This document shows positions 38,301 through 62,960 of a DNA stretch of 64,000 nt, piece by piece; the first letter of the stretch is position 1; each line of letters opens with the position of its first letter. The notes under the pieces are model-generated. The model was given only the letters and a program-made list of their open reading frames with translations, did no database searches and was not told where the DNA came from. Made by a program: the position numbers and the translations under genes. This stretch comes from Nematopogon swammerdamellus. Its lineage: Eukaryota; Arthropoda; Insecta; Lepidoptera; Adelidae. The stretch is taken from positions 1 through 64,000 of the forward strand of contig OX336351.1 in NCBI GenBank assembly GCA_946902875.1, given 5' to 3'.

Positions 38301-38760
38301 AGATGTTGGGCGACAGCATTAAAGTTAGCTCGTAGACCGCATATATTACACATGTCTACTTTAAAGTGTTTGGGAGACGTGGGAGTCGCACTTAAAGCGG
38401 TGAATTTCCTTTTGTTTCTTGGCATGAGGTTAGTTTTGAGGGAAATGAAAAAATGGAGCAAACAAGACGAGATTTGGGGAGCGGTAATATTGAAGACAGC
38501 TCAAGTGGGTTCTCCAAGAACACTGTCACAAGGGACGAGAGGACCCCCAGGCCCCCCCTGACGAGGATGCACCCCGGTCTCCCCAGGTCACCATGCCTCA
38601 AGGTGCACCTCCGTCAGGATTTTTCGCTGGCTGATAGGGCAGCCCCCTACGCAGGCTGGTGCGACCGCACGCGGCGGGCCCCTGTACACTCACTGAATGA
38701 TTCACTTTTAAGTTTACACCATTCAATTTGGTTGCTTCAACCGCATTGAAAGGCAGAAGT
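35382..38760 (-). mobile_element. LINE with intact ORF2 (minus strand)
   Basis: Read on the minus strand, there is a GC-rich 5' region (about 38760-38462), the 990-codon ORF2 (38461-35489), a short 3' UTR and a poly(A) stretch seen as T's at about 35382-35402. No separate ORF1 is found upstream on the same strand. The element is therefore 5'-truncated just before ORF2, or ORF1 lies in damaged sequence near 38400-38600, where a 69-codon frame remains. The uninterrupted ORF2 indicates a recent insertion. The 5' border is not defined. Confidence 0.8.
35489..38461 (-). CDS. LINE ORF2 protein: AP endonuclease plus reverse transcriptase, 990 aa
   Basis: This would nick target DNA and copy LINE RNA at the nick. 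Residues about 35-250 form an exonuclease/endonuclease/phosphatase-type endonuclease: LTETQ near 65 (catalytic Glu), GDFNAKHGDW near 171, and SDHCLVS near 245 (catalytic Asp-His). A linker precedes the RT. RT landmarks are KNYRPIAITSLLCKVME near 542-560, block A ALDISKAFDRVWH near 615, AGVPQGSVLSPTL near 671, and the YADD catalytic box at 700-703. The C-terminal third ends with the usual IWNGLP and FKRRVNKL motifs. There is no visible stop or frameshift, so it is potentially active. The first in-frame ATG gives 990 aa; MPRNKRKFT (codon 13) is an alternative start. Broadly Jockey/R1-like, clade not assigned. The tail at 43001 belongs to a related family. Confidence 0.92.
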   Translation of the reverse strand: MLHFFISLKTNLMPRNKRKFTALSATPTSPKHFKVDMCNICGLRANFNAVAQHLQTAKPHLLFLTETQVAQHTTNLDIPGYSLFERFVAKSGVCVYGRSDVSVKRLTLFEDPQFPVVWIRVNLPHVVRVYAGVYRSPNLGAKESAALFEYLSSSADRVLCQLPTAEIVMLGDFNAKHGDWLGSCTTDAAGKDAYNLAMAHGLTQLVSGITRVPRNPSHRANLLDLVLTSEPKGYKAVVKAPLGNSDHCLVSTTVPTAYYADTREGSTRTVWHYKSAQWDDLRTFFGGYPWQETCFRSAGPSQSAEAVAEVILQGMEYFIPSSVVPIGGTQKPWFNRQCRLAVEAKNQAFKRWLCDRSVESRRAYNASVKSSKRVLYLAKFKHDRGVSQKLARCPTGSRAFWSLANSIGRNFCRAATPPLERPDGTLAILAKEKANIFARLFASNSTLDDQGATPPSLPQCDKSMREVRFHNRAVFKSLRQLDASKSSGPDGVPARVLKMCALELTPILTRLFRRSFSSGIVPACWRKAAVQPVPKKGNSADPKNYRPIAITSLLCKVMERVINTQLLTYLETCKLLDDKQYGFRKQRSSGDILAYVTHVWAERLDNFGESLAVALDISKAFDRVWHRGLLSKLPAYGIPSSLCNWIASFLGDRSIFVTIDGAKSVHFPINAGVPQGSVLSPTLFLLFINDLLCLGNIHSYADDSTADEGYAKDWTAREVRIDDARRQTVNRVDDVLVKVASWGCENLVDFNVSKTQACAFSTKADRFPFQATFQGTAIPNNDKLDLLGVELTKDVGFRGFIESKATLASRKLGVLYRSRRFFSPAQLLMLYKAQVRPVMEYCSHLWGGCPLYLLASLDSIQRRAIRLIGDPKLTERLESLGHRRTIGSLSLFYRYYHGRCSDELASLIPPAPIRLRHTRRTRSEHPYVVDTQLLRTHRFSKSFLCRTAKIWNGLPVSVFPTTYNLGIFKRRVNKLDDNLFVRLIAGMAPL

Positions 38761-39289: not shown

Positions 39290-40620
39290 AGTACGAGTGA
39301 ATACGGGTCGACAGGGCCTTAAGTGCGGGGCTACTGTGTATCGGCAGTGCGAGAGTGTGGCGGATGCAAAAACCGCTCCAGACTGAGGAACGCCAAATAG
39401 CGTGTTCCGAGTGCGCGTCGCAATTTCACGCAGGATGGTGAACTCCTCCCTTCGCACACGCGCTACACGCGACACCTGGATATGTCCCCAGTGCTTCACC
39501 TCGAAGCGGAGAGCTGGGAACAACACCGACACTCCCGCGAGGAACACGATGACGGCGTATTCTTCGACACTTACGGATCGTTCCCGGACGCCCGTGCTGA
39601 GGACAACTTCGTGGTCAAAACATTGAAGGCATCTACGGCGAAGCAACCGCAAGCAGACCACGGCGTTCGTCGCCGAAAAACACGCTGATGAAATCGACGA
39701 CTTCAGTACGACCATCCGAGCCGCTAGAACGGAAATCGCCAACTTGCAAGCATCGCTGGAGGACTGTCAAAACCGTCTGAAGGGCTTGAAGCCCTCGGCA
39801 CGATGCAGCTGCGCCTGCAGAGGCTGGAAGAGCGAGTCAAGACAATAGACAACCTACAGGTGAGGGTGCATCGCCTTGAGCTTGAACTAAATTCACGTGA
39901 ACAACAAGACATGCTAAACGATGTGGAGATTGCGGGAGTCACGGAACAGCCGGGTGAAAATCTCGGTCTGAGTCATCGCGGTCTTAAGCGGCGGGTGACC
40001 GAGTGGTTTGGGCATCGGCTTCTCATGCGAAAGGTCCGAGGTTCGAATCCGGTCGGCGTGTACCAATGAGTTTTTGCTGACGAAAAAATTTACGTGCATA
40101 CCTACACCTGCTGCTTCACCGTTCGGAACCGGTGTAAAACTGTAGGTCCCTTCCCTTGCCCCTCACTAGGTGGTAGGCTCAAATTGTAGCCGACTGGGTC
40201 GGTACCACCGTACTGGATGTAAAATGGCCACATAGCAAACTCGGTTGTGTTCTCCTCTAGTCCAGTATAGCCAGCAATCCAGGGAAGTCTCCGGTATGGC
40301 ACCTACCTTCTCGGAGGTGATATTGGCTAGTCGGAGCATGCGCTTTGGCCCCTCCGACTCAGCCACCCATACCGGAATACATAAAACAAAAAATCTCTTA
40401 AAACACTTGGAGTGTAACTCGACGAGGAGGACGTCGTCTTCACCAACAGAGTCCCCACCCGCCCCCGCCCGACGCAGCAACTCTGGAGACGGGCGACCCC
40501 GAGCCTTCCTTGAGCGACTCAGTCGTAGAGCATGAAACCAACTTCTAAAGGCGGCCAGAGTGCGACGTGGTATAAACACCGATGACATACAGATCACTGG
40601 CGCGAAAAACCCTATACAGG
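39290..40620 (+). pseudogene. LINE ORF1 relic with zinc finger and coiled coil, split by a SINE
   Basis: A PHD-like finger is readable with frameshifts: ECGGCKNRSRLRN near 39350, CSECASQFHAG near 39412, and TWICPQC near 39475. A coiled coil follows (39803-39957: QLRLQRLEERVKTIDNLQ and the LNDVEIAGVTEQPGENL stretch). After the SINE at 39987-40395 the reading resumes with LGV.LDEEDVVFTNRVPT and a basic C-terminal region. PHD finger plus coiled coil is typical of ORF1 proteins of CR1/Jockey-group LINEs, which bind RNA or chromatin. Frameshifts and stops make it inactive. No matching ORF2 follows directly. Confidence 0.75.
39987..40395 (+). mobile_element. Full-length tRNA-derived SINE, copy 3
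   Basis: Box A-like 'tgaccgagtgg', intact box B-like 'ggttcgaatcc', the same body as copies 1 and 2, and an A-rich end. TCTTAA occurs immediately before it (39982-39987) and immediately after its tail (40396-40401), a plausible 6-bp target-site duplication. It interrupts the LINE ORF1 relic so that the flanking protein reading can be joined across it. Confidence 0.88.
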
Positions 40621-44199: not shown

Positions 44200-45390
44200 A
44201 CAAATTATCTTTTTAAATTAGTTTATTCACAATAAATAAAATAAGTTACAACAAATGACGCATCAAAATTTTTATATAAATAATAAACAGCTACCTATTT
44301 AATATAATTAATTAAATAATAATATTACAAGAAACTCGATTGAAAACAGTAGCTACCTCCCTCTCCTAAATATACAAAAATATCACCTCTCGACCCCGGC
44401 CGCTCCCTACACACAGACAACACTACGGCCCCCGGCCCCCACTCCACTACCGATACCGGCGACAATATAACAAAGCATTATTACAATGCAGCTTATCTAT
44501 CAGATATTATCAATACTTAATCAAATCTTACAATATAATAAATCTCTGTAATTATAAACTTCATCATTTGAAGCCACACACGGACACAGACGAGGTGCAG
44601 TGTCTGAGTGCGACCACGCTCCATACTCTTAGTTCACTACTTGCAATAAATAACATAATCAGATTGAATCTGTCGCGCAGGCGCACGTAGTAAGTAAGCA
44701 TGACATGGAGTAAAGCTAATGAGATTGAGACGCGCTGGGGGGAGCGCGAGGCTATTTGTAACCTCCTCACAGTTTCAATAAATACCTACATTCACTTAAT
44801 ATTCGCCTCGCGTGTCGCGTCTAATGCATATCTTGTAGAGTGACGACTGTTGTGTCAACACATGCATCGCCGCACACAAGCAGTGCCGGCAAACATAACA
44901 CATTGTTGCTAACAGATTAATATAGTATAACAAATCTTTACAAATTAAACAGACCAATTGTTTGTCAACCCCTCCTCTCCCCTATTGAGTTATTCTATTT
45001 TACTGGGAAGTGGGACGCGGAATCTACAGACGCGCACTTTGTTCAATAAGCTAATGGCGGCGGTAGGCGCCACGCCACCCTCCGCTCTGCGACTCTACCG
45101 CTCCGCTGCGCCGACTGTCGAACCACTTCTCCCGTCTTCTATTACGTCATTTGAGCGTGTTATAATCCAATACCATTATTTTTTTTGTGATGGCTGGGCT
45201 CTACTGGTTTCATCAATCCAGAAATTGGAGCACAAGTGCGCCGACCACAAAGCGGAAGGTGGATTTAAGCTATAAATGATGTTTCTCATTACTATAGATA
45301 GTCTCTCCCTACCCGACGATTAATACGAGTAACATTATGAGAACCTTCGTTGGAAATTCATTTAAATGGATAAAGAATGTATTGGCGTCA
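44200..45390 (-). other. Possible ash1 3' UTR sequence
   Basis: This non-repetitive segment lies directly downstream (minus strand) of the array that begins in the last ash1 exon. An AATAAA poly(A) signal on the minus strand (TTTATT at 44222-44227) is a plausible transcript end. If so, the 3' UTR would contain the whole 160-bp array plus this segment. This is positional inference only; transcript data would be needed to show where transcription ends. Confidence 0.3.
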
Positions 45391-48300
45391 TAGAGCAGGC
45401 ACGGTAGTCGGCAGCGAGCGGTGCGGTCAGCAGTAGCGGCAACAGACGCCGGCGGCGCGCGGCGGTCAGGAGGGCTTGCCGCGCGCGCGCCGCGTCTCCA
45501 GCAGGTAGGAGGCGTCCAGCGCGGCGCCGCCCGCGCACAACAGCCGCGACACGATCATACAGCAGGCACGGCAGCGAGCGGTGCGGTCAGCAGTAGCGGC
45601 AACAGACGCCGGCGGCACGCGGCGGTCAGGAGAGCTTGCCGCGCGCGCGCCGCGTCTCCAGCAGGTAGGAGGCGTCCAGCGCGGCGCCGCCCGCGCACAA
45701 CAGCCGCGACACGATCATACAGCAGGCACGGCAGCGAGCGGTGCGGTCAGCAGTAGCGGCAACAGACGCCGGCGGCACGCGGCGGTCAGGAGAGCTTGCC
45801 GCGCGCGCGCCGCGTCTCCAGCAGGTAGGAGGCGTCCAGCGCGGCGCCGCCCGCGCACAACAGCCGCGACACGATCATACAGCAGGCACGGCAGCGAGCG
45901 GTGCGGTCAGCAGTAGCGGCAACAGACGCCGGCGGCGCGCGGCGGTCAGGAGGGCTTGCCGCGCGCGCGCCGCGTCTCCAGCAGGTAGGAGGCGTCCAGC
46001 GCGGCGCCGCCCGCGCACAACAGCCGCGACACGATCATACAGCAGGCACGGCAGCGAGCGGTGCGGTCAGCAGTAGCGGCAACAGACGCCGGCGGCGCGC
46101 GGCGGTCAGGAGGGCTTGCCGCGCGCGCGCCGCGTCTCCAGCAGGTAGGAGGCGTCCAGCGCGGCGCCGCCCGCGCACAACAGCCGCGACACGATCATAC
46201 AGCAGGCACGGCAGCGAGCGGTGCGGTCAGCAGTAGCGGCAACAGACGCCGGCGGCACGCGGCGGTCAGGAGAGCTTGCCGCGCGCGCGCCGCGTCTCCA
46301 GCAGGTAGGAGGCGTCCAGCGCGGCGCCGCCCGCGCACAACAGCCGCGACACGATCATACAGCAGGCACGGCAGCGAGCGGTGCGGTCAGCAGTAGCGGC
46401 AACAGACGCCGGCGGCGCGCGGCGGTCAGGAGGGCTTGCCGCGCGCGCGCCGCGTCTCCAGCAGGTAGGAGGCGTCCAGCGCGGCGCCGCCCGCGCACAA
46501 CAGCCGCGACACGATCATACAGCAGGCACGGCAGCGAGCGGTGCGGTCAGCAGTAGCGGCAACAGACGCCGGCGGCGCGCGGCGGTCAGGAGGGCTTGCC
46601 GCGCGCGCGCCGCGTCTCCAGCAGGTAGGAGGCGTCCAGCGCGGCGCCGCCCGCGCACAACAGCCGCGACACGATCATACAGCAGGCACGGCAGCGAGCG
46701 GTGCGGTCAGCAGTAGCGGCAACAGACGCCGCCGGCGCGCGGCGGTCAGGAGGGCTTGCCGCGCGCGCGCCGCGTCTCCAGCAGGTAGGAGGCGTCCAGC
46801 GCGGCGCCGCCCGCGCCCAACAGCCGCGACACGATCATACAGCAGGCACGGCAGCGAGCGGTGCGGTCAGCAGTAGCGGCAACAGACGCCGCCGGCGCGC
46901 GGCGGTCAGGAGGGCTTGCCGCGCGTGCGCCGCGTCTCCAGCAGGTAGGAGGCGTCCAGCGCGGCGCCGCCCGCGCCCAACAGCCGCGACACGATCATAC
47001 AGCAGGCACGGCAGCGAGCGGTGCGGTCAGCAGTAGCGGCAACAGACGCCGGCGGCGCGCGGCGGTCAGGAGGGCTTGCCGCGCGCGCGCCGCGTCTCCA
47101 GCAGGTAGGAGGCGTCCAGCGCGGCGCCGCCCGCGCCCAACAGCCGCGACACGATCATACAGCAGGCACGGCAGCGAGCGGTGCGGTCAGCAGTAGCGGC
47201 AACAGACGCCGGCGGCGCGCGGCGGTCAGGAGGGCTTGCCGCGCGCGCGCCGCGTCTCCAGCAGGTAGGAGGCGTCCAGCGCGGCGCCGCCCGCGCCCAA
47301 CAGCCGCGACACGATCATACAGCAGGCACGGCAGCGAGCGGTGCGGTCAGCAGTAGCGGCAACAGACGCCGGCGGCGCGCGGCGGTCAGGAGGGCTTGCC
47401 GCGCGCGCGCCGCGTCTCCAGCAGGTAGGAGGCGTCCAGCGCGGCGCCGCCCGCGCTCAACAGCCGCGACACGATCATACAGCAGGCACGGCAGCGAGCG
47501 GTGCGGTCAGCAGTAGCGGCAACAGACGCCGGCGGCGCGCGGCGGCCAGGAGGGCTTGCCGCGCGCGCGCCGCGTCTCCAGCAGGTAGGAGGCGTCCAGC
47601 GCGGCGCCGCCCGCGCCCAACAGCCGCGACACGATCATACAGCAGGCACGGCAGCGAGCGGTGCGGTCAGCAGTAGCGGCAACAGACGCCGGCGGCGCGC
47701 GGCGGTCAGGAGGGCTTGCCGCGCGCGCGCCGTCTCTCCAGCAGGTAGGAGGCGTCCAGCGCGGCGCCGCCCGCGCCCAACAGCCGCGACACGATCATAC
47801 AGCAGGCACGGCAGCGAGCGGTGCGGTCAGCAGTAGCGGCAACAGACGCCGGCGGCGCGCGGCGGTCAGGAGGGCTTGCCGCGCGCGCGCCGCGTCTCCA
47901 GCAGGTAGGAGGCGTCCAGCGCGGCGCCGCCCGCGCCCAACAGCCGCGACACGATCATACAGCAGGCACGGCAGCGAGCGGTGCGGTCAGCAGTAGCGGC
48001 AACAGACGCCGGCGGCGCGCGGCGGTCAGGAGGGCTTGCCGCGCGCGCGCCGCGTCTCCAGCAGGTAGGAGGCGTCCAGCGCGGCGCCGCCCGCGCCCAA
48101 CAGCCGCGACACGATCATACAGCAGGCACGGCAGCGAGCGGTGCGGTCAGCAGTAGCGGCAACAGACGCCGGCGGCGCGCGGCGGTCAGGAGGGCTTGCC
48201 GCGCGCGCGCCGCGTCTCCAGCAGGTAGGAGGCGTCCAGCGCGGCGCCGCCCGCGCCCAACAGCCGCGACACGATCATACAGCAGGCACGGCAGCGAGCG

Positions 48301-48760
48301 GTGCGGTCAGCAGTAGCGGCAACAGACGCCGGCGGCGCGCGGCGGTCAGGAGGGCTTGCCGCGCGCGCGCCGCGTCTCCAGCAGGTAGGAGGCGTCCAGC
48401 GCGGCGCCGCCCGCGCCCAACAGCCGCGACACGATCATACAGCAGGCACGGCAGCGAGCGGTGCGGTCAGCAGTAGCGGCAACAGACGCCGGCGGCGCGC
48501 GGCGGTCAGGAGGGCTTGCCGCGCGCGCGCCGCGTCTCCAGCAGGTAGGAGGCGTCCAGCGCGGCGCCGCCCGCGCCCAACAGCCGCGACACGATCATAC
48601 AGCAGGCACGGCAGCGAGCGGTGCGGTCAGCAGTAGCGGCAACAGACGCCGGCGGCGCGCGGCGGTCAGGAGGGCTTGCCGCGCGCGCGCCGCGTCTCCA
48701 GCAGGTAGGAGGCGTCCAGCGCGGCGCCGCCCGCGCCCAACAGCCGCGACACGATCGCGT
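45391..48760 (-). repeat. 160-bp satellite derived from the last ash1 exon, 21 copies
   Basis: The period is exactly 160 bp (starts at 45421, 45581 ... 48621). The right-most unit is contiguous with the ash1 terminal coding exon, and every unit contains the exon segment from about 'gatcgtgtcgcgg' through the stop codon plus downstream sequence. The junction uses the shared GATCGTGTCGCGG: in the gene it follows 'aacgc', in the repeats 'gctgtat'. Variants are spatially sorted. Left-hand units have 'ccgcgcacaac' and some 'gcggcacgcgg'; right-hand units, nearest the exon, have 'ccgcgcccaac'. The 111-codon plus-strand frames recurring every 160 bp are artefacts. Confidence 0.93.
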
Positions 48761-48788
48761 TCAGCCGCTCCTTTTGTTTCTCGCGATT
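48666..48788 (-). CDS. ash1: ash1, terminal coding exon (C-terminus)
   Basis: On the minus strand, acceptor 'gtgtgatacag' at 48789-48791 is followed by 40 codons starting NREKQKERLNAIVSRLL and ending ALDASYLLETRRARGKPS, then TGA at 48666-48668. The LDxSYLL motif close to the C-terminus fits the end of insect ASH1. Phase 0 matches the end of the preceding exon at 49506. Most of this exon is also the seed of the 160-bp array immediately downstream. I chose the frame because it is the only one continuing phase 0 from upstream and ending soon after the conserved motif. Confidence 0.78.
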   Translation of the reverse strand, partial: NREKQKERLNAIVSRLLGAGGAALDASYLLETRRARGKPS

Positions 48789-49505
48789 CTGTATCACACA
48801 CACAGCACACTATCAAGCACGCGCGGCGCGGCGCGGGAGTCAGTGTCGTATAGCAGGAGCGCCTCCATTCTCATTAAATACGTTCGTACGAGCGTCCGGG
48901 GAGAGCTTGGTAACTGAATGGCATCACTGTAGGAATAATTAGTTATCCTTGCCACGATAATCGAAAAAAAAAATCAAGGTTAATGTCATGAATAGTTTGT
49001 ATAGTAGATATTTTTGCTCTGGGAATAAATAAAATATAATTTTTGAGTCCTTTTGTAAATTTACGACAAATAAACATACATTTTGGTGACAGTTGTATTA
49101 TTTTTAACCGACTTCAAAAAAAAAGGAGGAGGTTCTCAATTCAACTGTATTTTTTTATGTTTGTTCCCTCAGAACTTTCGACTTGGTGAACCGATTTTGA
49201 TGATTCTTTTTTTATTTGAAAGCTGGTGCTTCCCGTGTTGGAAAGCGAGGCGGAATACATTAATAGCAAAAAAATACTAAAAAAACCGTGAAAACTATTA
49301 AAAAAATATAAAAACCGCCTTCAAAAATGTATGAAATAAAAAAAATCGAACCCAAGAGTTGAAGGCGGTGCTAAAGCAATCAAAAATGATTTTTTATATT
49401 TTTTTTAAATAGATTTTTTCCTTATACCCCAACAATGTTTTGTGGAAAGTAAAGTTTGAGCGCAGAGTTGAAGAGGTTAGCTGGCACTACTAACTAATGA
49501 CATAC
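48789..49505 (-). other. ash1 last intron (717 bp) with dispersed repeat
   Basis: GTATGT donor at 49500-49505 and CAG acceptor at 48789-48791 on the minus strand. The middle (about 49105-49420) is a dispersed repeat with 'accgacttcaaaaaaaaagg' and 'gttgaaggcggtgctaaag', phrases echoed at 3641, 2742 and 23961. Confidence 0.7.
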
Positions 49506-49613
49506 CCGGTCGGCGAGCGGCTGCGGCGGCGGCGCGGCGGGCACCTTCCTGCGCTCGGCGGCTCCGGCGCGGCCCCCGCGACCCTTCAGGTACTCCGGAG
49601 ACACCTCGTGCGG
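49506..49613 (-). CDS. ash1: ash1 exon after the BAH domain
   Basis: Exactly 36 codons between acceptor 'gtgtgcgcag' and donor 'gtatgt' on the minus strand, in phase 0. It reads PHEVSPEYLKGRGGRAGAAE, then a basic and proline-rich segment ending QPLADR. 'YAPHEVSPEYLK' across the junction with the 51576 exon fits the segment just after the ASH1 BAH domain. The proline/alanine-rich remainder is linker-like. Confidence 0.8.
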
Positions 49614-51575
49614 CTGCGCACACGCACACATTCACATCAGCTCCAGCCGCAACAACGTCTCTAGTGTAGCTACCATACTAAGTGATACTAACTCAACACT
49701 TCAACACAACGCTAAATCTGCCGGCTACCAGTGACGGAACTAGAGAAAGGAAGAGGGAGCGGGGCGGGAGACTACCAGTGAGGATCTAGAGAAAGGAAGA
49801 GGGAGCGGGGCGGGAGTATACCAGTGGCGGGTCTAGAGAAAGGAAGAGGGAGCGGGGAGGGAGTCTACCAGTGGCGGATCTAGAGAAAGGAAGAGGGAGC
49901 GGGGCGGGAGTCTACCAGTGGCGGGTCTAGAGAAAGGAAGAGGGAGCGGGGCGGGAGTCTACCAGTGGCGGGTCTAGAGAAAGGAAGAGGGAGCGGGGCG
50001 GGAGTCTACCAGTGGCGGGTCTAGAGAAAGGAAGAGGGAGCGGGGAGGGAGTCTACCAGTGGCGGATCTAGAGAAAGGAAGAGGGAGCGGGGCGGGAGTC
50101 TACCAGTGGCGGATCTAGAGAAAGGAAGAGGGAGCGGGGTGGGAGTCTACCAGTGGCGGATCTAGAGAAAGGAAAAGGGAGCGGGGCGGGAGTCTACCAG
50201 TGGCGGGTCTAGAGAAAGGAAGAGGGAGCGAGGCGGGAGTCTACCAGTGGTGGATCTACAGATAGGAAAAATGAGCGGTGCGGGAGTCTACCAGTGGCGG
50301 ATCTAGAGATAGGAAGAGGGAGCGGGGTGGGAGTCTACCAGTGGCGGGTCTAGAGAAAGGAAAAGGGAGCGGGGCGGGAGTCTAACAGTGGCGGGTCTAG
50401 AGAAAGGAAGAGGGAGCGAGGCGGGAGTCTACCAGTGGTGGATCTACAGATAGGAAAAATGAGCGGTGCGGGAGTCTACCAGTGGCGGATCTAGAGATAG
50501 GAAGAGGGAGCGGGGTGGGAGTCTACCAGTGGCGGATCTAGAGAAAGGAAAAGGGAGCGGGGCGGGAGTCTACCAGTGGCGGGTCTAGAGAAAGGAAGAG
50601 GGAGCGAGGCGGGAGTCTACCAGTGGTGGATCTACAGATAGGAAAAATGAGCGGTGCAGGAGTCTACCAGTGGCGGATCTAGAGATAGGAAGAGGGAGCG
50701 GGGTGGGAGTCTACCAGTGGCGGGTCTAGAGAAAGGAAAAGGGAGCGGGGCGGGAGTCTACCAGAGGCGGGTCTAGAGAAAGGAAGAGGGAGCGAGGCGG
50801 GAGTCTACCAGTGGTGGATCTACAGATAGGAAAAATGAGCGGTGCGGGAGTCTACCAGTGGCGGATCTAGAGATAGGAAGAGGGAGCGGGGCGGGAGTCT
50901 ACCAGTGGCGGATCTAGAGATAGGAAAAGGGAGCGGTGCGGGAGTCTACCAGTGTTGTCATATCAAATTAGCTAATAATAAATTTATAGATAGAATTTTC
51001 AAACATAGTAATACATTTTCTTTCGACTACCATCTTGCCAAAAATTATATAAATAAAATAAAAATAAAATACTAACCTACCTAGAACAAATATCATAATT
51101 TAATAAACAATTTAGTAATAAAAAAAAATTGGTTGTCTGTTAAGTCGGTTTACGGACGATAGTTTTACGTGATGACGTGGAATAATCATAGTACATAGAG
51201 CAAATATCAGTAATTATATTTCCAGTAGAAAGATTAATCATCTTGTGACTGGCCATCAATAAACTTCTGTTGTCTGATCTTGACAGTTTTACTTTTTAAG
51301 ACGTTTCCATGGTAACTTTGACTATACCGATTGTGCCTCTCTATCGCTTGTTACGCGCTCTCGCTTGCACACACAGGCTCAGATGGAACGTGACATTTTT
51401 TCGTGCGTGCAGCCGGTGTTCATCAATTTATAAGACGTGACGTCATCACGTCAAAAAATTAAATATATTTTTAAACATTTAAAAAACAAGGCACAGAAAG
51501 AGGGAGCGTGCCTAGGGAAGAGGGAGCGTGCCTAGGGAAGAGGGAGTGTAGTGGTGTGGTCAGGGGTGTACTCAC
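49614..51575 (-). other. ash1 intron containing a 47-bp minisatellite
   Basis: A 1,962-bp intron with donor GTGAGT (51570-51575) and CAG acceptor (49614-49616) on the minus strand. The array at 49728-50960 occupies its middle. The remaining 51.0-51.5 kb is AT-rich with no further feature apart from two 'agggagcgtgcctagggaag' repeats near 51502. Confidence 0.75.
49728..50960 (+). repeat. 47-bp minisatellite, about 26 units, with 188-bp higher order
   Basis: The unit starts 'accagtggcggatctagaga' and ends 'gcggggcgggagtct'. A distinct variant unit ('accagtggtggatctacag') appears at 50243, 50431, 50619 and 50807, exactly 188 bp (four units) apart, so the right half is a higher-order repeat. It lies inside the ash1 intron and is not coding. 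Confidence 0.93.
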
Positions 51576-51743
51576 GGCGTAGGTGCGGAAGATCTTGATG
51601 CGCTGCGCGAAGTGTCGGAAGGCGTAGGACTTGGTGCAGATGGGGTACTTGGGACGCGACACCTTGGTGAAGAGCCGCGCGGTGCGGTCCACGCGCAACT
51701 CACAGATGTACACGTGCTCCTCGCGCGCCGCCGTCGGCCGCCC
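51576..51743 (-). CDS. ash1: ash1 exon, C-terminal half of BAH domain
   Basis: 56 codons in phase 0, with acceptor 'gtgtgtgcag' after a (GT)n stretch (minus strand) and donor 'gtgagt' at 51570-51575. It reads GRPTAAREEHVYICELRVDR, TARLFTKVSRPKYPICTKSY and AFRHFAQRIKIFRTYA. The EEHVYICELRVDKTARLF-type segment completes a BAH fold, a nucleosome-interaction module. The preceding exon ends YCK, and YCK|GRP joins as expected for ASH1-family BAH domains. The tandem array of the previous exon's 3' end lies immediately upstream in the intron. Confidence 0.87.
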
Positions 51744-54219
51744 CTGCACACACACACACACACACACGCTGTAGTCAGTGTAGTACACATGCCACACACA
51801 CACCTCCCCATTCACTACACACTGCACGCACACCTACCTTGCAGTAGGTAATGAGGTCCATCACCCAGCACTGCGACATGCCACGTATACACACCTCTCC
51901 ATTCACTACACACTGCACACCCACCTTGCAGTAGGTATTGAGGTCCATCACCCAGCACTGCGACATGACCAGTTCGATGGGCACCGCCTCGTGCAGTACC
52001 TCTATAGTACACATGCCACACATACACACCTCCCCATTCACTACACACTGCACACCCACCTTGCAGTAGGTATTGAGGTCCATCACCCAGCACTGCGACA
52101 TGACCAGTTCGATGGGCACCGCCTCGTGCAGTACCTCTATAGTACACATGCCACACATACACACCTCCCCATTCACTACACACTGCACACCCACCTTGCA
52201 GTAGGTATTGAGGTCCATCACCCAGCACGGCGACATGACCAGGTCGATGGACACCGCCTCGTGCAGTACCTCTATAGTACACATGCCACACATACACACC
52301 TCCCCATTCACTACACACTGCACACCCACCTTGCAGTAGGTATTGAGGTCCATCACCCAGCACGGCGACATGACCAGGTCGATGGACACCGCCTCGTGCA
52401 GTACCTCTATAGTACACATGCCACACATACACACCTCCCCATTCACTACACACTGCACACCCACCTTGCAGTAGGTATTGAGGTCCATCACCCAGCACGG
52501 CGACATGACCAGGTCGATGGACACCGCCTCGTGCAGTACCTCTATAGTACACATGCCACACATACACACCTCCCCATTCACTACACACTGCACACCCACC
52601 TTGCAGTAGGTATTGAGGTCCATCACCCAGCACGGCGACATGACCAGGTCGATGGACACCGCCTCGTGCAGTACCTCTATAGTACACATGCCACACATAC
52701 ACACCTCCCCATTCACTACACACTGCACACCCACCTTGCAGTAGGTATTGAGGTCCATCACCCAGCACGGCGACATGACCAGGTCGATGGACACCGCCTC
52801 GTGCAGTACCTCTATAGTACACATGCCACACATACACACCTCCCCATTCACTACACACTGCACACCCACCTTGCAGTAGGTATTGAGGTCCATCACCCAG
52901 CACGGCGACATGACCAGGTCGATGGACACCGCCTCGTGCAGTACCTCTATAGTACACATGCCACACATACACACCTCCCCATTCACTACACACTGCACAC
53001 CCACCTTGCAGTAGGTATTGAGGTCCATCACCCAGCACGGCGACATGACCAGGTCGATGGACACCGCCTCGTGCAGTACCTCTATAGTACACATGCCACA
53101 CATACACACCTCCCCATTCACTACACACTGCACACCCACCTTGCAGTAGGTATTGAGGTCCATCACCCAGCACTGCAACATGACCAGGTCGATGGGCACC
53201 GCCTCGTGCAGTACCTCTATAGTACACATGCCACACATACACACCTCCCCATTCACTACACATTACACACCCACCTTGCAGTAGGTATTGAGGTCCATCA
53301 CCCAGCACTGCAACATGACCAGGTCGATGGGCACCGCCTCGTGCAGTACCTCTATAGTACACATGCCACACATACACACCTCCCCATTCACTACACATTA
53401 CACACCCACCTTGCAGTAGGTATTGAGGTCCATCACCCAGCACTGCGACATGACCAGGTCGATGGGCACCGCCTCGTGCAGTACCTCTATAGTACACATG
53501 CCACACATACACACCTCCCCATTCACTACACATTACACACCCACCTTGCAGTAGGTATTGAGGTCCATCACCCAGCACTGCAACATGACCAGGTCGATGG
53601 GCACCGCCTCGTGCAGTACCTCTATAGTACACATGCCACACATACACACCTCCCCATTCACTACACATTACACACCCACCTTGCAGTAGGTATTGAGGTC
53701 CATCACCCAGCACTGCAACATGACCAGGTCGATGGGCACCGCCTCGTGCAGTACCTCTATAGTACACATGCCACACATACACACCTCCCCATTCACTACA
53801 CATTACACACCCACCTTGCAGTAGGTATTGAGGTCCATCACCCAGCACTGCAACATGACCAGGTCGATGGGCACCGCCTCGTGCAGTACCTCTATAGTAC
53901 ACATGCCACACATACACACCTCCCCATTCACTACACATTACACACCCACCTTGCAGTAGTTATTGAGGTCCATCACCCAGCACTGCAACATGACCAGGTC
54001 GATGGGCACCGCCTCGTGCAGTACCTCTATAGTACACATGCCACATATACACACCTCCCCATTCACTACACACTGCACACCCACCTTGCAGTAGGTATTG
54101 AGGTCCATCACCCAGCACTGCAACATGACCAGGTCGATGGGCACCGCCTCGTGCAGTACCTCTATAGTACACATGCCACACATACACACCTCCCCATTCA
54201 CTACACACTGCACACCCAC
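51744..54219 (-). other. ash1 intron built almost entirely of exon-derived repeats
   Basis: The intron between the two BAH exons consists of the 135-bp array plus a short (GT)n stretch (about 51745-51770) just before the acceptor. Long open frames cross it on both strands (493, 707 and 847 codons) only because the 135-bp unit is a multiple of three and lacks stops. They are not separate genes. Confidence 0.85.
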
Positions 54220-54290
54220 CTTGCAGTAGGTATTGAGGTCCATCACCCAGCACTGCGACATGACCAGGTCGATGGGCACCGCCTCGTAGA
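51840..54290 (-). repeat. 135-bp satellite from the BAH exon and its 5' splice site, about 18 copies
   Basis: Successive copies of 'catacacacc' are 135 bp apart. Each unit contains, on the minus strand, the last 60 or so bases of the BAH exon (EAVPIDLVM..CWVMDLNTYCK), the splice donor GTGGGT and about 70 bp of intron. The right-most copy is the real exon end (54220). Sub-families are ordered: copies at about 53.25-53.95 kb carry 'cacattacacac', copies at about 52.2-53.1 kb carry 'cacggcgac...ggacaccg', and the leftmost unit is internally deleted. Coding sequence and donor are almost invariant in all copies. Confidence 0.95.
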
Positions 54291-54489
54291 GCGGCACACG
54301 CATCACCTCGTTGGGGAAGAACTTCCTGGTGGGCTCGTGGTAGGTCTCGTGCGGACGCAGGTAGTGGTGGCCGTACACGAAGCGCTCGCCGCTCTCGCGG
54401 TGCCGCCACAGCCGCTCCACCCGGAAGATGTCCAGCTCCGACACGGGTATCTCGCCGATGCTCTTGTACGTGTGCTTCGCTGCCTCGCC
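54220..54489 (-). CDS. ash1: ash1 exon, N-terminal half of BAH domain
   Basis: 90 codons, phase 0, donor GTGGGT at 54214-54219; acceptor proposed at 54490-54491 (AG after ctgg). It reads GEAAKHTYKSIGEIPVSELD, IFRVERLWRHRESGERFVYG, HHYLRPHETYHEPTRKFFPN and EVMRVPLYEAVPIDLVMSQC, then WVMDLNTYCK. FRVERLW, HHYLRPHET and FFPNEVMRVPLYE are BAH-domain hallmarks, and HxYLRPxETxHEPxRxFxPNEV is what I know from ASH1. The acceptor lacks a good pyrimidine tract, so the exact 5' edge is less certain than the rest. Confidence 0.88.
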
Positions 54490-54783
54490 CTCCAGTCCAG
54501 CACACATTCAACATTATTATTTCAGTGCAAATAACTCAATATTTTCATTTTGTGTCGAAATGCATATTGAGTATGTCAACCACCATTACATGGCAACAGT
54601 GGGAACTGTCCAATAACGAGGGGAAACCATTCAATTTGCGTACGCTAAAACACACTTGGAATGCTGTGAAGTTGCTGAGCATGCATACTATCCAACACGG
54701 GTCGTGTAGGCCCTCCACAGGAGCGATGCTGCAAACTCTATGTCCTTAGATTACGTGATGCGGTGGGACAAGGTAGCGCTCAC
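54490..54783 (-). other. ash1 intron (294 bp)
   Basis: A short AT-rich intron between the two exons, donor GTGAGC at 54778-54783. No repeat or regulatory feature was recognised. Confidence 0.7.
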
Positions 54784-55011
54784 CACTTCCGCCTCCTTCC
54801 TCTTGAGTTTGCTCCTGTTGAGTTCGGCGCGAGTGTGCTTGTGCGGGGGTGGGGCGGGCGCGGATACGTCCGGGCGGCGCTCGTCGATGGGGATGTCGCG
54901 CAGCACGTACACCGTGTCGCCCTGCCGCACCTGCAGCTCGCCGCGCATCAGCGACAAGTAGAACTGGTGGCCCTCCTCCGTGTACTCGTCCAGCGGGATC
55001 TCCAGCTCCAC
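54784..55011 (-). CDS. ash1: ash1 exon linking PHD finger and BAH domain
   Basis: 76 codons in phase 0, acceptor 'gtgtggtgcag' and donor 'gtgagc' (minus strand). It reads VELEIPLDEYTEEGHQFYLS, LMRGELQVRQGDTVYVLRDI and PIDERRPDVSAPAPPPHKHT, ending in a basic NRSKLKRKEAEV. The EYTEEGH.FYLSLMRG.LQVRQGD.VYVLRDIPI stretch is highly characteristic of ASH1 and opens the BAH fold. This segment is my strongest single evidence for the gene identity. Confidence 0.92.
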
Positions 55012-55894
55012 CTGCACCACACCCTCGTCACTACACATGCCACCCTCACCGGGCGCGGCCGACACTTGTGGCAGTGATGGGGCGCGGAGGTGTCACTGCT
55101 GCCAGCCTCCGTGTGCACACTCACCGGGCGCGGCCGTAACTTGTGGCAGTGATGGGGCGCGGCGGAGTGCTGTCGGTGACGCGCATGCAACGCGCGTGCT
55201 GCCACACGCCGCAGCCCGCGCCGCCGCACTGCACCATGAGCCCCTCCTCCAGGTGCACACTCACCGGGCGCGGCCGACACTTGTGGCCGTGATGGGGCGC
55301 GGAGGTGTCGGTGTCGCGCATGCAACGCGCGTGCTGCCACACGCCGCAGCCCGCGCCGGCGCACTGCACCATGAGCCCCTCCTCCAGGTGCACACTCACC
55401 GGGCGCGGCCGACACTTGTGGCAGTGATGTGGCGCGGAGGTGTCACTGCTGCCACCCCCCGTGTGCACACTCACCGGGCGCGGCCGACACTTGTGGCAGC
55501 GATGGGGCGCGGAGGTGTCGGTGACGCGCATGCAACGCGCGTGCTGCCACACGCCGCAGCCCGCGCCGCCGCACTGCACCATGAGCCCCTCCTCCAGGTG
55601 CACACTCACCGGGCGCGGCCGACACTTGTGGCAGTGACGTGGCGCGGAGGTGTCACTGCTGCCACCCCCCGTGTGCACACTCACCGGGCGCGGCCGACAC
55701 TTGTGGCAGCGATGGGGCGCGGAGGTGTCGGTGACGCGCATGCAACGCGCGTGCTGCCACACGCCGCAGCCCGCCCCGCCGCACTGCACCATGAGCCCCT
55801 CCTCCAGGTGCACACTCACCGGGCGCGGCCGACACTTGTGGCAGTGACGTGGCGCGGAGGTGTCACTGCTGCCACCCCCCGTGTGCACACTCAC
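55012..55894 (-). repeat. Tandem array of PHD-exon copies, about 210-bp unit
   Basis: Copies of the PHD exon lacking its first 20 or so bases alternate with a shorter copy of the exon's last part. Donor-like 'gtgagtgtgcac' sites recur at alternating spacings of 74 and 136 bp between about 55040 and 55890. The join uses the shared TGCAC: donor gtgagtgTGCAC runs into exon TGCACctggagg. Copies closest to the next exon have drifted. The frame stays open on the minus strand from 56038 to 55121, so retention of this DNA would add repeated PHD-like modules. Confidence 0.9.
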
Positions 55895-56049
55895 CGGGCG
55901 CGGCCGACACTTGTGGCAGTGATGGGGCGCGGAGGTGTCGGTGACGCGCATGCAACGCGCGTGCTGCCACACGCCGCAGCCCGCGCCGCCGCACTGCACC
56001 ATGAGCCCCTCCTCCAGGTGCAAGCCGCAGATGCACATTATGACTTCCT
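55895..56049 (-). CDS. ash1: ash1 exon encoding the PHD finger
   Basis: 155 nt. Acceptor 'tttgtttcag' at 56050-56059 (minus strand), first two bases completing a split codon, then EVIMCICGLHLEEGLMVQCG, GAGCGVWQHARCMRVTDTSA and PHHCHKCRPRP, donor GTGAGT. The Cys/His order C-x-C...C-x4-C...WQH-x2-C...C-x2-C is a PHD finger, a histone-tail reader. ASH1 carries one between its SET and BAH domains. One zinc pair has C-x4-C spacing (CGGAGC), wider than the usual C-x2-C. Only this copy has the acceptor and the leading CICG, so it is the genuine exon. The upstream SET-domain part is not in the window. Confidence 0.88.
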
Positions 56050-57973: not shown

Positions 57974-60823
57974 CTACCGCATTATCGTAAGCATACTTTC
58001 TACTTCTTCGTATTCCATCGCAAGTAGTAGTGACTTTATAACTTTCTTACATGCGGGTAAATTTAGTTTTCTTATATTTCTAATCCTATCTACTTTATTA
58101 TAGAGGAACGGGCCGAGGAACCATCTATACCGTTGCGCCATTCCAGTTCGGACACCGGGCACTGCTAATAGATGTGCGAACCGGGTAAGATGTGCACCTC
58201 GCCCCGGCGCATCAAATTTAGCCGTTCTATGACTCCTAATTATGATTTTTTCAATGAAAAGTTTCCTCACGCTCAATACACCTATCTCATTCAGCATAGT
58301 ATGTGTGGGGTATCTATAGGGTTTCTTCATCATAACGCGAAGAACAACCCTTTGCGCTCTTTCTACCATAATCAAGTGTGATTTTGCAGCACCACCCCAT
58401 GCCGTGATGCAATAAGTTAAACGTGATTGACACAATGCGAAATAAATAGTACGAAGAAGGTTATTATCGGCAATGTTACGTAGTCGTTTGAAAACATATA
58501 TTAGACTTCGCGTTCTACTAGCCAAACACGCCATGTGCGTATCCCAGCACAAGTTTTCGTCTAGGTTAATGCCCAAGTAGCGGATGCATTTTACTCGTTC
58601 TATTTTCTCACAGTTACAACTTTGGTTATTGTGGCATGAATGTAACCGTAGGGTGTGGTGTGCTCCTGGGGAAGTAGAGCTGTTGATGCAGAAAGCGAGA
58701 TATTTTGTTTTTTGTACATTCAGAGTAAGTAAGTTAGCGTCTAACCATAATTTTAACGACCTTAATCCACTCTCAGCCAGTTTGAATACCTTTTCCCATG
58801 TTTTTTCCGAAAAGATTAGGGCTGTGTCGTCAGCAAATGTAAATATTTTACAGCCTTCTAATTTCTTATTACATAAGTCATTTATGTAGATTATAAAAAG
58901 TATAGGTCCTAGCACACTACCCTGGGGCACACCAAACCCCATACCAACCTCGTCACTAACCACATCCCCTATCCTGACGCACTGTTTTCTGTCCAAGAGG
59001 TAACTAGTGAACCAGGAAAGCGGCACTCCCCTGATACCTAATCCTTCCATTTTTTTAAGAAGGATTTTTGGCGACACTGTGTCAAACGCCTTTTCTAAAT
59101 CTAGAAATAAGCCAACACATCTTTCCCCTCTGTCCAACATCCTGGAGATATGGTCAGTTAAATCCCCAACAGCATCTTCGGTGCTCTTGTCATTTTGAAA
59201 TCCGTATTGGTTTTGACTAATTAATACATATTTATCCATATATTTCGTGATACGGGCTTTGACTAACTTTTCCAGGATCTTAGACAGGATAGGAAGTAAT
59301 GAGATTGGTCTGTAATTTGTGACAAGCCGTTTGTCTCCACTTTTGTGTATTGGGCTAATGATTCCCTTCTTAAAAGCAGTTGGAAAGGTTCCTGTAGACA
59401 TACTTAAATTCATAATAAAAGTAAGTGGTACTGTGATCAGATCCACTGTTTTTTTAAGTAACAGAGAACTGATGTTATCCCACCCGCCAGCGCTCGCGGA
59501 ATTTAAGTTGCTTATAATACTCTTTATTTCGCTGGGATCCGTAGGATTCATAAAGAAAGTATTTGATGAGCGAGGCTGCTCAATTTCTACCTCTTTCGCT
59601 AGAATTTCTTCCGTCTTATTCAATGAACTTAGTATACGCCTCGCTCGAGAACCACCAACATCCGCAAAGAAGTAATTAACGTCATTAACTGTAAGGTTAT
59701 CGTTTTTAATAAGGTCTAAAGGCGGATGATTTTGCTTGATGGGGAAGTCCGCAGCTTCCTTTATTATCTCCCAGGTCTTTTTTGAATTGTTAATATTCAT
59801 GCATAAGTCTTTCCTCATATATAATTCCTTTGCCTTCGCAGTAGCACGATCACATGTGTTTCTGTAAGATTTGTATTTTTTTTGAAGGTCTAAATCGTTT
59901 GCATACTTTTTAGCTTGTTTGTGTAACATGTCTCGTTTTTTAAGACATTTAATCAAACCCGGGGTAATCCAGCGTTTGATGTTCCTCCGAGATCTCGGCA
60001 AGTTGCGTGTTTCCGTATGTGTATGTATTAGTTCTTGTAATATATCTATAAACGTAAATACTGCCGAATTCACATCATTGCATTTAAGAATTTCTCCCCA
60101 GTCGTATTTATCTAAGGCTGTCGCTATGGCTGTATTGTTGACTATTTTTAGACTACGTTTTATGGTTTTCTGTGAGCCTTTAAGATTGCCTATGCACGCC
60201 AAAATAGGATAATGATCTGTTATTGCGGTTTGGCAAACCGCCGTTTCTATTGAAAGCTTGCTACGTATCATTAAATGGTCCAGACATGCTGATTGTCTAG
60301 TCGGATTTAACATCGCTGGAATTAAACCATGTTCAGCCATAAGGCACAAATAACTTTCGGCTCTTTGATCAGAAGAATCCTCACTTATATTAATGTTAAT
60401 ATCACCACTTAGAATAAGTTGCTGGAAGCAGTTTGTATTAGATAATAACTTCTGGAGCGAATTAAGGAAGTTAACTATTACACTAAAACTCGGGGACCTG
60501 TAAATAGCCAGGATGACGGTCTTGTCAGGAAACTCAATTTGTAGGCAGTTGGCATCTTGACATTCCGGTTCAGTGACAATAACTGAATGTTTAGTGTTTA
60601 TATAAACAATGACACCATCACATTTATTATAATGCTTCGTAGTATGGAATGAAAAGTATCCATCTAAAAATTTAGGAAGATATGTTGCTGTGTTAATCCA
60701 GCATTCAGTCAGGATTATTACATCAAATTCCATATTTATTCTATTTAGTAGGACTAATAAGTGCTCAAAATTATGATTAATGCTTCTAATGTTTACTGTA
60801 AGTGTTTTATACTGCGCGAGCAT
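57974..60823 (-). CDS. LINE ORF2 protein: AP endonuclease plus reverse transcriptase, 949 aa
   Basis: An uninterrupted ORF. The endonuclease covers residues about 5-215: NIRSINHNFEHL at the N-terminus, LTECWI near 39 (catalytic Glu), SGDININ near 139 and TDHYPIL near 202. A basic linker (RRNIKRWITPGLIKCLKKRD) precedes the RT: NYRPISLLPILSKILEKLV near 503, FLDLEKAFDTVSP near 572, GVPQGSVLGPILF near 631 and FADDTALIF near 664 (catalytic box). The C-terminus ends with LLLAMEYEEVESMLTIMR. The frame also stays open about 30 codons upstream of this ATG, adding an acidic stretch. No damage is visible, so it is potentially active. CR1/Jockey group in the broad sense. Confidence 0.92.
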   Translation of the reverse strand: MLAQYKTLTVNIRSINHNFEHLLVLLNRINMEFDVIILTECWINTATYLPKFLDGYFSFHTTKHYNKCDGVIVYINTKHSVIVTEPECQDANCLQIEFPDKTVILAIYRSPSFSVIVNFLNSLQKLLSNTNCFQQLILSGDININISEDSSDQRAESYLCLMAEHGLIPAMLNPTRQSACLDHLMIRSKLSIETAVCQTAITDHYPILACIGNLKGSQKTIKRSLKIVNNTAIATALDKYDWGEILKCNDVNSAVFTFIDILQELIHTHTETRNLPRSRRNIKRWITPGLIKCLKKRDMLHKQAKKYANDLDLQKKYKSYRNTCDRATAKAKELYMRKDLCMNINNSKKTWEIIKEAADFPIKQNHPPLDLIKNDNLTVNDVNYFFADVGGSRARRILSSLNKTEEILAKEVEIEQPRSSNTFFMNPTDPSEIKSIISNLNSASAGGWDNISSLLLKKTVDLITVPLTFIMNLSMSTGTFPTAFKKGIISPIHKSGDKRLVTNYRPISLLPILSKILEKLVKARITKYMDKYVLISQNQYGFQNDKSTEDAVGDLTDHISRMLDRGERCVGLFLDLEKAFDTVSPKILLKKMEGLGIRGVPLSWFTSYLLDRKQCVRIGDVVSDEVGMGFGVPQGSVLGPILFIIYINDLCNKKLEGCKIFTFADDTALIFSEKTWEKVFKLAESGLRSLKLWLDANLLTLNVQKTKYLAFCINSSTSPGAHHTLRLHSCHNNQSCNCEKIERVKCIRYLGINLDENLCWDTHMACLASRTRSLIYVFKRLRNIADNNLLRTIYFALCQSRLTYCITAWGGAAKSHLIMVERAQRVVLRVMMKKPYRYPTHTMLNEIGVLSVRKLFIEKIIIRSHRTAKFDAPGRGAHLTRFAHLLAVPGVRTGMAQRYRWFLGPFLYNKVDRIRNIRKLNLPACKKVIKSLLLAMEYEEVESMLTIMR

Positions 60824-60911
60824 GTTCAGTTTACACCTACAATCCTCAGGTTCCTCTATCGTTAGTGTTTTAATGACATTGAGTTCCTCAATATCGTGTT
60901 CTATCTCTTCG

Positions 60912-61751
60912 TCAAGTTCGCCTTATATAAATAGGTGTAGTGAACAGTGTTCGCGTGTGTATGTGTTTCAGAGAGGTTGCAGGTGTTTGTAGTGTACTTG
61001 TATATAGTAGATGCTCGTTTTCGGTAGTGTACTTTGGTATAGTGAGTGATGAGTATGATTGTGATTTGGCAGTGGCCATGTTTTGTGTGGTCGGTAACGC
61101 CTGTACATTGATTTTCGAAGAACTTCTAAAAAATATCATAAGATTTGATAATATTTTAGATAATTGAGCACATAGAAAACCAAGATCTAAACTGTAATAA
61201 TTAACGTGGAAATTCTTAGGTATTACTATTGTGAACAATACGAACTTATATATGCTTATACTAGTCTCTAAATTATATGGAATGTAAACGCATCTATTTT
61301 CTAGCTTCATAATTTGATAATGGGAGAGAAATTTAGTAAATAGTGTTCTTTCAAATAAATGAGTACATAGATAACTTAATTCTAAACTGTAATAAGCAAC
61401 GAGGAAATTCTTAAGTAGTACTATGGTGAGAGACATGTATTTACCTATACTTAAACTATTCACTAAAGAATAAAGAATGTAAACACATATAGTTTCCAAT
61501 TTCATAATTTGGTAACTAGAGAAAAATGTATTATAGAATCCTTCAGATAAATGTGTACGTAGAAAAATTTGTTCCAAACTGTAATAGGAAACGAGGAAAT
61601 CCTTAGGTAGTATTGTAGTGAAAAACCTGTACTTATATATACTTAACCTAGTCTCTAAGTAATAAAGAATATAAACATATTTATTTTCTAAATTCACAGT
61701 TTGACATCGAGAGAAAAATGCATTAAACTTGTAAAACGGTAACAAGCACAA
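60912..61751 (-). CDS. Putative LINE ORF1-position frame, 279 aa
   Basis: An open frame upstream of ORF2 on the same strand; its TGA (60912-60914) overlaps the beginning of the extended ORF2 frame. About the first 200 codons translate the AT-rich 193-bp monomers, giving repeated YSLE, CVYI and Phe/Tyr-rich segments unlike any known ORF1. The last 55 codons, from MATAKSQSYSSLTIPKYTTE, look different (Ser/Thr-rich) and lie outside the monomers. I suspect that only this short part, if any, is translated. No zinc finger or RNA-binding motif is visible. Confidence 0.3.
   Translation of the reverse strand: MCLLPFYKFNAFFSRCQTVNLENKYVYILYYLETRLSIYKYRFFTTILPKDFLVSYYSLEQIFLRTHLSEGFYNTFFSSYQIMKLETICVYILYSLVNSLSIGKYMSLTIVLLKNFLVAYYSLELSYLCTHLFERTLFTKFLSHYQIMKLENRCVYIPYNLETSISIYKFVLFTIVIPKNFHVNYYSLDLGFLCAQLSKILSNLMIFFRSSSKINVQALPTTQNMATAKSQSYSSLTIPKYTTENEHLLYTSTLQTPATSLKHIHTRTLFTTPIYIRRT
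61130..61745 (-). repeat. Tandem 5' monomers upstream of LINE ORF2, about 193-bp unit
   Basis: The landmark 'actgtaata' occurs at 61191, 61386 and 61578 (spacings 195 and 192), with a partial fourth copy near 61735. The monomers are diverged from each other. They sit exactly where a LINE 5' UTR would be, on the strand that encodes ORF2. Some LINEs carry promoter-active tandem 5' UTR monomers. Promoter function here is inference. Confidence 0.8.
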
Positions 61752-61925: not shown

Positions 61926-62960
61926 AAATTTTTTTTATGAAAAATATATTTTTTTTAAATTGAAGTATTGGCCATTATTATCAATGCACTTTTGCCATTT
62001 TACTGAAAGTTCATTGATGCCTCTGCTATAGAAATCCTGGGGATGGGAATCGATTAACTCTTTAAAGGCGTTTTTCACTGCCTCATCGGATTTGAAATTT
62101 TTCCCCTGTAAAAAGTTATCCAAATTTCGAAAAAAAATGTGCAGACCAGTTGGAGCAAGGTCTGGTGAATATGGTGGGTGACGAATTTGCAGTCGTACCT
62201 CCCGTAGTTTTGAGACGGTCCATTGTGCGGTGTGTGAGCGAGCTTTGTCGTGAAGAAGGAGTGGACTAGAGCAATTGGCAAGTCTCTGTTATTTGACAGC
62301 GAGCTTATCAATCATTATTTTCAATTCTTCACAGTACACATCTGCAGTAATTGTTGCGCCAGGTATCAAGAAGCTGTAATGAATAATGCCGGCACAGGTC
62401 CACCATACACTGACAAGCAACTTCTTTTGACTCAATTTGCGTTTGGGACATGGTTTGGCTGCCTCCCCTGTGTCCAACCAGTGTGACGGACGTTTTCGAT
62501 TATCAACCAGGATCCACTTTTCATCACAAGTGACAATCCGATTCAGAATCCCCTCATTTCTATGCCTATTCAACAAGTTAAGACAAGCTTCGACGCGATT
62601 TTGTCGTTGCTGTTCAGTGAATTCATACGGTACCCACTTTCCGAGCTTTTTTATCTTTCCAATTTGACGTAAATGAATCAGTATCGTTTTATCTCTTACA
62701 TTGAAGGCTGCTGCTAATTCCGACTTTCGTCTCCGGTCGGCCATGGGGCTCATAATTGAGATGAAAATTTCCAGAACGGGAGCGATCAAACCAAAAATGC
62801 ACAGTGCGTTCACTTGCGGTACCTGGTCCATACACGTCGATGATATTGCGTATCCGCTCAGGTGGCATGGGTCTTCGAATTTGAATTTATCAGATATATT
62901 ATGTTTATGTTATGACAGGTCTCCATGTTTGCCCCACGCTATTGAATCGGCCATACAATA
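61926..62960 (-). pseudogene. Mariner transposase relic (cecropia-like)
   Basis: Minus-strand pieces are in order. PERIRNIIDVYGPGTASERT and VHFWFDRSRSGNFHL (HTH region) lie near 62870-62750. The 62750-62289 frame has RKSELAAAFNVRDKTILIHL, LGKWVPYEFTEQQRQNRVEA, IVTCDEKWILVDN and LDTGEAAKPCPKRKLSQKKL. The 62280-62160 region has HDKARSHTAQWTVSKL and YSPDLAP-like text. It ends with 62123-61935, DNFLQGKNFKSDEAVKNAFK. CDEKW and HD.ARSHTA are the first two catalytic Asp motifs of mariner (DD34D). At least two frameshifts make it non-functional. LGKWVPYE and KPKL..KK resemble the cecropia subfamily common in Lepidoptera. TIRs were not located. Confidence 0.87.

Follow-up and report, generated by a model that had tools for sequence, protein, structure and literature searches.

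We found that ash1 of the moth Nematopogon swammerdamellus carries tandem arrays built from its own exons, four of them and probably a fifth in a single gene. The DNA analysed, here called the window, comprises the first 64,000 bases (1-64000) of contig C20 (21.9 Mb) in a 699-Mb assembly of 39 contigs; the 3′ exons of an intact ash1 occupy its minus strand at 45.4-56.05 kb. We consider it likely that the arrays are exon-border minisatellites of the kind called mirages in amphioxus, which arose by microhomology-seeded duplication in a minisatellite-rich genome and were retained wherever one splice or stop path was left intact. The data are a genome assembly of one haplotype, and both splice-site use and copy number are read from the assembled sequence alone.

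Six ash1 exons (A to F in Table 1) lie on the minus strand from 56,049 to 48,666, and the joins between them are all in phase 0. The protein of the joined exons matches the PHD-BAH region of human ASH1L (8vlh) with an expectation value (E) of 1.8e-72. Its best Ash1 relative is that of Diatraea saccharalis (74% identical, with 86% of the query covered), and it also matches the Ash1 records P0002, P0003, P0004, P0065, and P0029, the last from the dragonfly Ladona. The last exon (QKERLN...LDASYLL) is matched in P0002, P0003, and P0029; the Diatraea, P0004, and P0065 records stop short of it. AWS-SET exons are located upstream, at C20:98.9-101.5 kb (E = 4.8e-86 against ASH1L, 4ynp), and the AWS-SET, PHD, and BAH domains are present in the order of an ASH1 histone methyltransferase gene. 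When the genome was searched with the BAH exon, the 18 matches were all to the exon itself and its array, and no second ash1 locus was found; no relative of this exon was found among viral contigs. On this evidence the locus is ash1, the sole one found in the assembly. The frame of its genuine exons is intact.

Three of these exons have each seeded an independent array, as an earlier note on this DNA had claimed; calls by Tandem Repeats Finder (TRF) and dissection of the units bear this out. The BAH array has the 135-bp unit and about 18 copies that were first reported: TRF calls it at 51876-54287 (135 bp x17.9, 99% match), with a partial unit from 51787, and in total it holds 18 units, the last one shortened, and a partial one (beyond the exon, 16 full units plus the shortened and the partial one). 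The 160 bp and 21 copies given for the terminal array also hold (TRF 45409-48756, 160 bp x20.9, 99% match), and the stop position reads TGA in 20 of its 21 units and TGG in one. The PHD array is likewise real, but the unit of about 210 bp ascribed to it resolves into units of 75 and 135 bp. TRF calls this array at 55106-56022 with periods of 135, 210, and 345, and after the first donor the unit sizes run 75, 135, 75, 135, 75, 135, 140, and 75 bp.

Further ash1 arrays lie upstream of the window. The fourth, at C20:99,876-101,258 (L012-L013), has a TRF period of 334 (139 + 195 bp; x4.1, within C20:64001-164000), and its unit consists of the end of the SET exon and its donor. Another array, at C20:148,314-149,365 (L017; 121 bp x8.7), repeats TTTGCAG and an exon start; it shares the strand of ash1, lies upstream of a 1547-amino acid (aa) open frame, and is probably the fifth array of the gene. 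The same frame has upstream of it an 80-bp array as well (C20:143191-144163, x12.2, 99% match).

The repeat unit spans an exon-intron border in the BAH, PHD, and SET-exon arrays and in the 148-kb array, which covers a 3′ splice site. All four also repeat their splice signals, with 19 BAH donors (all keeping the consensus), nine PHD donors (eight with GTGAGTGTGCAC), eight SET-exon donors, and eight TTTGCAG acceptors. The terminal array spans a stop codon and 3′ untranslated region (UTR), not an exon-intron border, and on this point stands outside the mirage definition. The earlier note had each array spreading downstream from a genuine exon. Where units are made of exon end plus intron start, however, the genuine exon must by construction occupy the upstream end; the 148-kb array, whose complete exon is at the downstream end, speaks against the claim.

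Table 1. Exons of ash1 and tandem repeats in the 3′ part of the gene (window coordinates)
Feature	Position	Strand	Remarks
ash1 PHD exon (A)	55895..56049	-	acceptor TTTCAG, donor GTGAGT; its end forms unit 1 of the PHD array
PHD array	55049..55894	-	8 partial exon copies in 75-/135-bp units (one 140), all with a 5′ splice site at their end
ash1 exon B	54784..55011	-	without array
ash1 BAH exon (C)	54220..54489	-	final 66 nt form unit 1 of the BAH array
BAH array	51781..54219	-	135-bp units: 66 nt of exon end and 69 nt of intron start
ash1 exon D	51576..51743	-	remainder of BAH domain
20-bp x2.5 repeat	51498..51546	-	near the start of the intron that follows exon D; has the 13-mer GGAAGAGGGAGCG in common with the 47-bp unit
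47-bp minisatellite, D-E intron	49725..50954		TRF 47 bp x26.2
ash1 exon E	49506..49613	-	
ash1 terminal coding exon (F), to TGA	48666..48788	-	
Terminal array	45388..48750	-	21 copies of a 160-bp unit (coding end, stop, and 3′ UTR); first unit alone coding

Searched against the 699-Mb assembly, the BAH unit gave 20 matches and the terminal unit 21, each inside its own array; the search skips common words, and these counts are lower bounds. Within that limit, the check for unrelated copies elsewhere in the genome, which the note had proposed, found none for either unit. The PHD and 47-bp units were searched within the window. Compared as protein with other records, the BAH and PHD arrays gave three and two matches, respectively, only as ordinary Ash1 relatives (P0121 by eye).

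At the five joins in which both native contexts remain (two PHD, the terminal, and those of arrays on contigs C1 and C13 described below), the number of shared bases is 5, 3, 2, 5, and 4; the chance of sharing four or more is 0.0185, and of two or more, 0.17. Of the two sequences earlier named as shared at joins, TGCAC holds as a true join of 5 bp; GATCGTGTCGCGG, by contrast, is how the exon copy begins, and GA (2 bp) is the part shared there. The order of units within the arrays is not random. Neighbouring BAH units show 17 differences against a shuffle mean of 45.8 (as low in 0 of 5000 shuffles), and neighbouring terminal units 19 against 31.7 (4 of 5000). Neighbouring units are alike and units at the downstream edge have diverged, which is the pattern of concerted evolution.

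We propose that an initial tandem duplication would arise through template switching or end joining where a few bases of microhomology are available and would expand through unequal exchange or slippage. It would survive only with one intact path, the first donor, last acceptor, or first stop being used; with one such path in use, the extra copies become intron or 3′ UTR. Nothing in the arrays indicates a function for the copies, and the proteins are apparently left unbroken. Secondary structure or quadruplexes were rejected as a cause: Folding z-scores range from -1.97 to +3.18 over eight strands, and no quadruplex pattern was found in the four window arrays tested.

The mechanism acting from exon ends that had been suggested is not needed to place the arrays. 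With random placement on the collapsed locus, intron lengths being our own estimates, 34% (75 bp), 48% (135 bp), and 52% (160 bp) of tolerated placements touch an exon border. The chance that three or more of four arrays lie on borders is 0.18-0.31 at 0.4-0.5 per array. Touching the downstream border alone is rarer (0.18-0.23 each), and the position of three of the four window arrays there is mildly unusual, in a finding that was picked for that feature; the 148-kb array is at the opposite border.

Nor is the amplification special to ash1, as had been supposed, since arrays of like kind are present in other genes, on C1, C13, C19, and C7. We tabulated exon matches within the same genome for five families: SET (21), Pkinase (135), PK_Tyr_Ser-Thr (at least 154), Helicase_C (85), and ABC_tran (22), the Pkinase and PK_Tyr_Ser-Thr tables overlapping. 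Inspection by eye picked out regularly spaced tandem matches in three tables, at one place per table (C1:26.365 Mb, C19:2.803 Mb, and C7:25.469 Mb); the SET and ABC_tran tables showed none by eye. These counts are lower bounds, because the SET table (21 rows) missed both the ash1 SET array and the duplication on C13. The array at C1:26.365 Mb is a 5′-border array (196 bp x5.0). Those at C19:2.80 Mb (L040, C19:2803020-2803584; three copies, in a tyrosine-kinase-type gene) and C7:25.47 Mb (L041, C7:25468530-25469836; seven copies, in a helicase gene, RecQ-like by eye) repeat a whole exon with both splice sites. The array-bearing genes outside ash1 comprise four examples that by eye are PAS-kinase-, SMYD-, tyrosine-kinase-, and RecQ-like, and one kinase gene.

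Tandemly duplicated exons that are spliced in a mutually exclusive way are a known class, and the C7 and C19 whole-exon arrays resemble it in carrying both splice sites. Their copies are nearly identical, however, and their exons, of 157 and 161 nt (164 in a single copy), are in no case divisible by three, which keeps them out of that class. The 5′-border units of ash1 have no genuine acceptor and also fall outside it.

A sample of 32 exon-centred loci (L019-L028, L030, L031-L039, and L043-L054; 109 kb) was chosen without knowledge of arrays; L029, L040, L041, and L042, which were fetched for their arrays, were left out of the count. Exon arrays occur in two of the 32, at C13:16.5 kb (222 bp x2.0) and C19:424 kb (a 168-bp unit in 9.5 copies or more). 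Both belong to the 12 loci situated at most 1 Mb from a contig end (including L022 on C14, 0.15 Mb from the end), compared with none of the 20 further in (Fisher 0.13, by hand). Other repeats in these loci, such as those in L023, L024, L032, L037, L038, L039, L043, L048, and L054, were judged non-border from their period, composition, and place, L024 alone being translated. Two candidates, a 22-bp array beside the SET exon of L024 and a 144-bp array in L061, were judged by eye to be intronic or non-coding. In the near-end kinase locus L038 (C8), short GC-rich repeats of 18 and 27 bp (two to three copies, 1469-1532) are found within the kinase match.

Tandem DNA (period 10 or more, length 100 bp or more) makes up 36.7% of the window, 15.6% of C20:64-164 kb, and 14.9% of the sequence at eight random interior points. 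The corresponding values are 2.3% for 12 interior kinase loci, 1.1% for nine SET loci, and 4.6% for eleven near-end loci; moving L022 to the near-end group gives about 1.2% for SET and about 4.2% for near-end loci (by hand). The genome is rich in minisatellites, and exon arrays are a minor part of them. The excess in the window, which lies at the very start of its contig, and the confinement of the blind exon arrays to loci near contig ends would fit a regional hotspot, with ash1 near a chromosome end and error-prone repair there making arrays of any local sequence, exons included. We regard this as a possible but doubtful account. The random interior points equal C20:64-164 kb in tandem DNA, and exon arrays are also found at C19:2.80 Mb and, on C1 and C7, 4.9 and 1.2 Mb from the nearer end. 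There is no telomere repeat in the first 600 bases of C20, and the end of this contig may therefore not be a chromosome end.

The remaining alternatives concern what the copies are. Ash1 isoforms longer by 45-aa (BAH) or 25-/45-aa (PHD) steps, made by using the repeated donors, would draw on the consensus state of 19 BAH and eight of nine PHD donors, the phase-0 joins, units of 135 or 75 + 135 bp, and a PHD frame open across 312 aa. Such isoforms are nevertheless very improbable: The insert would sit inside the BAH fold, where the C-D join aligns with 8vlh without a gap, six of the 18 BAH units (3-8) contain an in-frame TAA, and the 140-bp unit breaks the PHD frame. The aligned Ash1 relatives have no such insert, and the exons in the whole-exon arrays elsewhere have lengths not divisible by three. 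All five variable exonic sites among the BAH units are nonsynonymous, which is weak evidence for the mirage-like reading, as most random changes are nonsynonymous. False expansion of near-identical units during assembly might be suspected from units up to 99% alike, but it is extremely unlikely, since the non-random unit order argues against a simple artefact; unit variants come in blocks, the edge units have diverged, and other genes have arrays of other units. Exact copy numbers may still be off. Hardly credible is a degenerating ash1 copy, such as one on a W chromosome, gathering arrays without selection: The surroundings are rich in transposon-like frames and satellites, but the exons are intact, the SET region matches ASH1L as closely as given above, and the BAH exon found no second locus.

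If mirage-like arrays are the right reading, the genuine BAH exon remains a unit of its own array, and it apparently takes part in the turnover of that array. Units 17-18 of the BAH array, at the far end, read PIELVMSQ, like P0001-P0003 (Diatraea and two close relatives), and P0004 and P0065 also have Glu at this site. The exon and units 2-16 read PIDL, with Asp instead of Glu. The Asp of the exon is derived by parsimony and common to most array units, which suggests that the exon copy joined in the turnover of the array. An unlikely extension of this reading is that, in this insect lineage, exon borders genome-wide (by extrapolation, hundreds) are becoming microhomology-seeded satellites and that ash1, near a chromosome end, is the extreme case; turnover would then rewrite conserved codons, a molecular drive on a chromatin gene, and supply splice sites for new exons.

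Several points weigh against the mirage-like reading. The density of four to five arrays in ash1, against two in 32 blind loci, may reflect an ash1-specific or chromosome-end effect, and to that degree the local instability of the earlier note may hold. The five scored joins leave outside those of the BAH, SET, 148-kb, and C7 arrays and both on C19. The Asp/Glu argument concerns a single site, at which the dragonfly carries Asp. That the first donor is used is predicted from sequence, and the amphioxus work deems cryptic use of splice sites in the repeats possible (PMC3087553, PMC3902484).

Other repeats in the window are of diverse kinds. The 47-bp array in the fourth intron, earlier described as an unrelated minisatellite, is just that: no exon sequence was found in it by comparison within the window, and an exonic origin of its unit was rejected, the 13-mer held in common with the 20-bp repeat being the only likeness. 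Between ash1 exons, at 57974-60922, is a 982-aa open frame with a reverse transcriptase domain (Pfam RVT_1), which a 1003-aa open frame at 35492-38500 resembles by eye; broken mariner-like transposase pieces are seen at 61938-62909 (by eye). A 9-kb degenerate CCTAAT-like array at 9710-18731 (974 CCTAA, no plus-strand TTAGG) resembles the insect telomere repeat, and a 25-bp array of about 135 copies (98% match) occupies 5451-8817. A 68-bp tandem family occurs at 20039-21259 and 29238-30530, at C20:108361-109117 and 129288-129637, and in L057 (3199-4000); its two window copies share flanks (19658 and 28881), which points to a mobile element that carries the tandem internally. Three copies of a repeat of about 400 bp, 90-94% alike and SINE-like (short interspersed element) by size only, are located at 3204-3606, 25443-25863, and 39986-40392.

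The earlier note knew of no described case. Amphioxus mirages precede this one: PMC3087553 and PMC3902484 describe tandem repeats across exon-intron borders in Adh3 and the globins Gb6 and Gb9, name TnC as a further case, and liken PGBD5 repeats to mirages. According to these papers, the Adh and TnC mirages generate no aberrant mRNAs, and reverse-transcription PCR of the globins suggested splicing undisturbed by the arrays. Judged against these descriptions, the BAH, PHD, SET, and 148-kb arrays are alike in border span and repeated splice signals. They differ in belonging to another phylum, with 18-21 copies, arrays up to 3.3 kb, and four to five in one gene; stop-codon/3′ UTR and whole-exon arrays, outside the strict definition, are also present. 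According to PMC4974935, a tandem duplication across an intron-exon border can supply splice signals and create an intron; there a single duplication gave a new intron, whereas here long arrays occur with no sign of one. A literature search (titles and abstract starts in one open-licence collection) turned up no insect exon-border array among the matches listed. The kind is thus known from amphioxus, and the novelty lies in the host, in how many arrays one gene carries, and in the forms that repeat a stop codon or a whole exon. Overall, the observation in the earlier note is confirmed with corrections, and its interpretation is partly supported.

These results suggest that the repeat type described in amphioxus also occurs in an insect. 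If so, exon-border arrays are no amphioxus peculiarity, and four to five of them in one conserved gene, with more in other insect genes, would surprise a specialist. They could mislead gene prediction and copy-number calls. In a chromosome-scale insect genome they would also offer many natural experiments: which of as many as 19 near-identical splice sites is chosen, how duplicated borders give rise to introns, and whether satellite turnover can change conserved exons.

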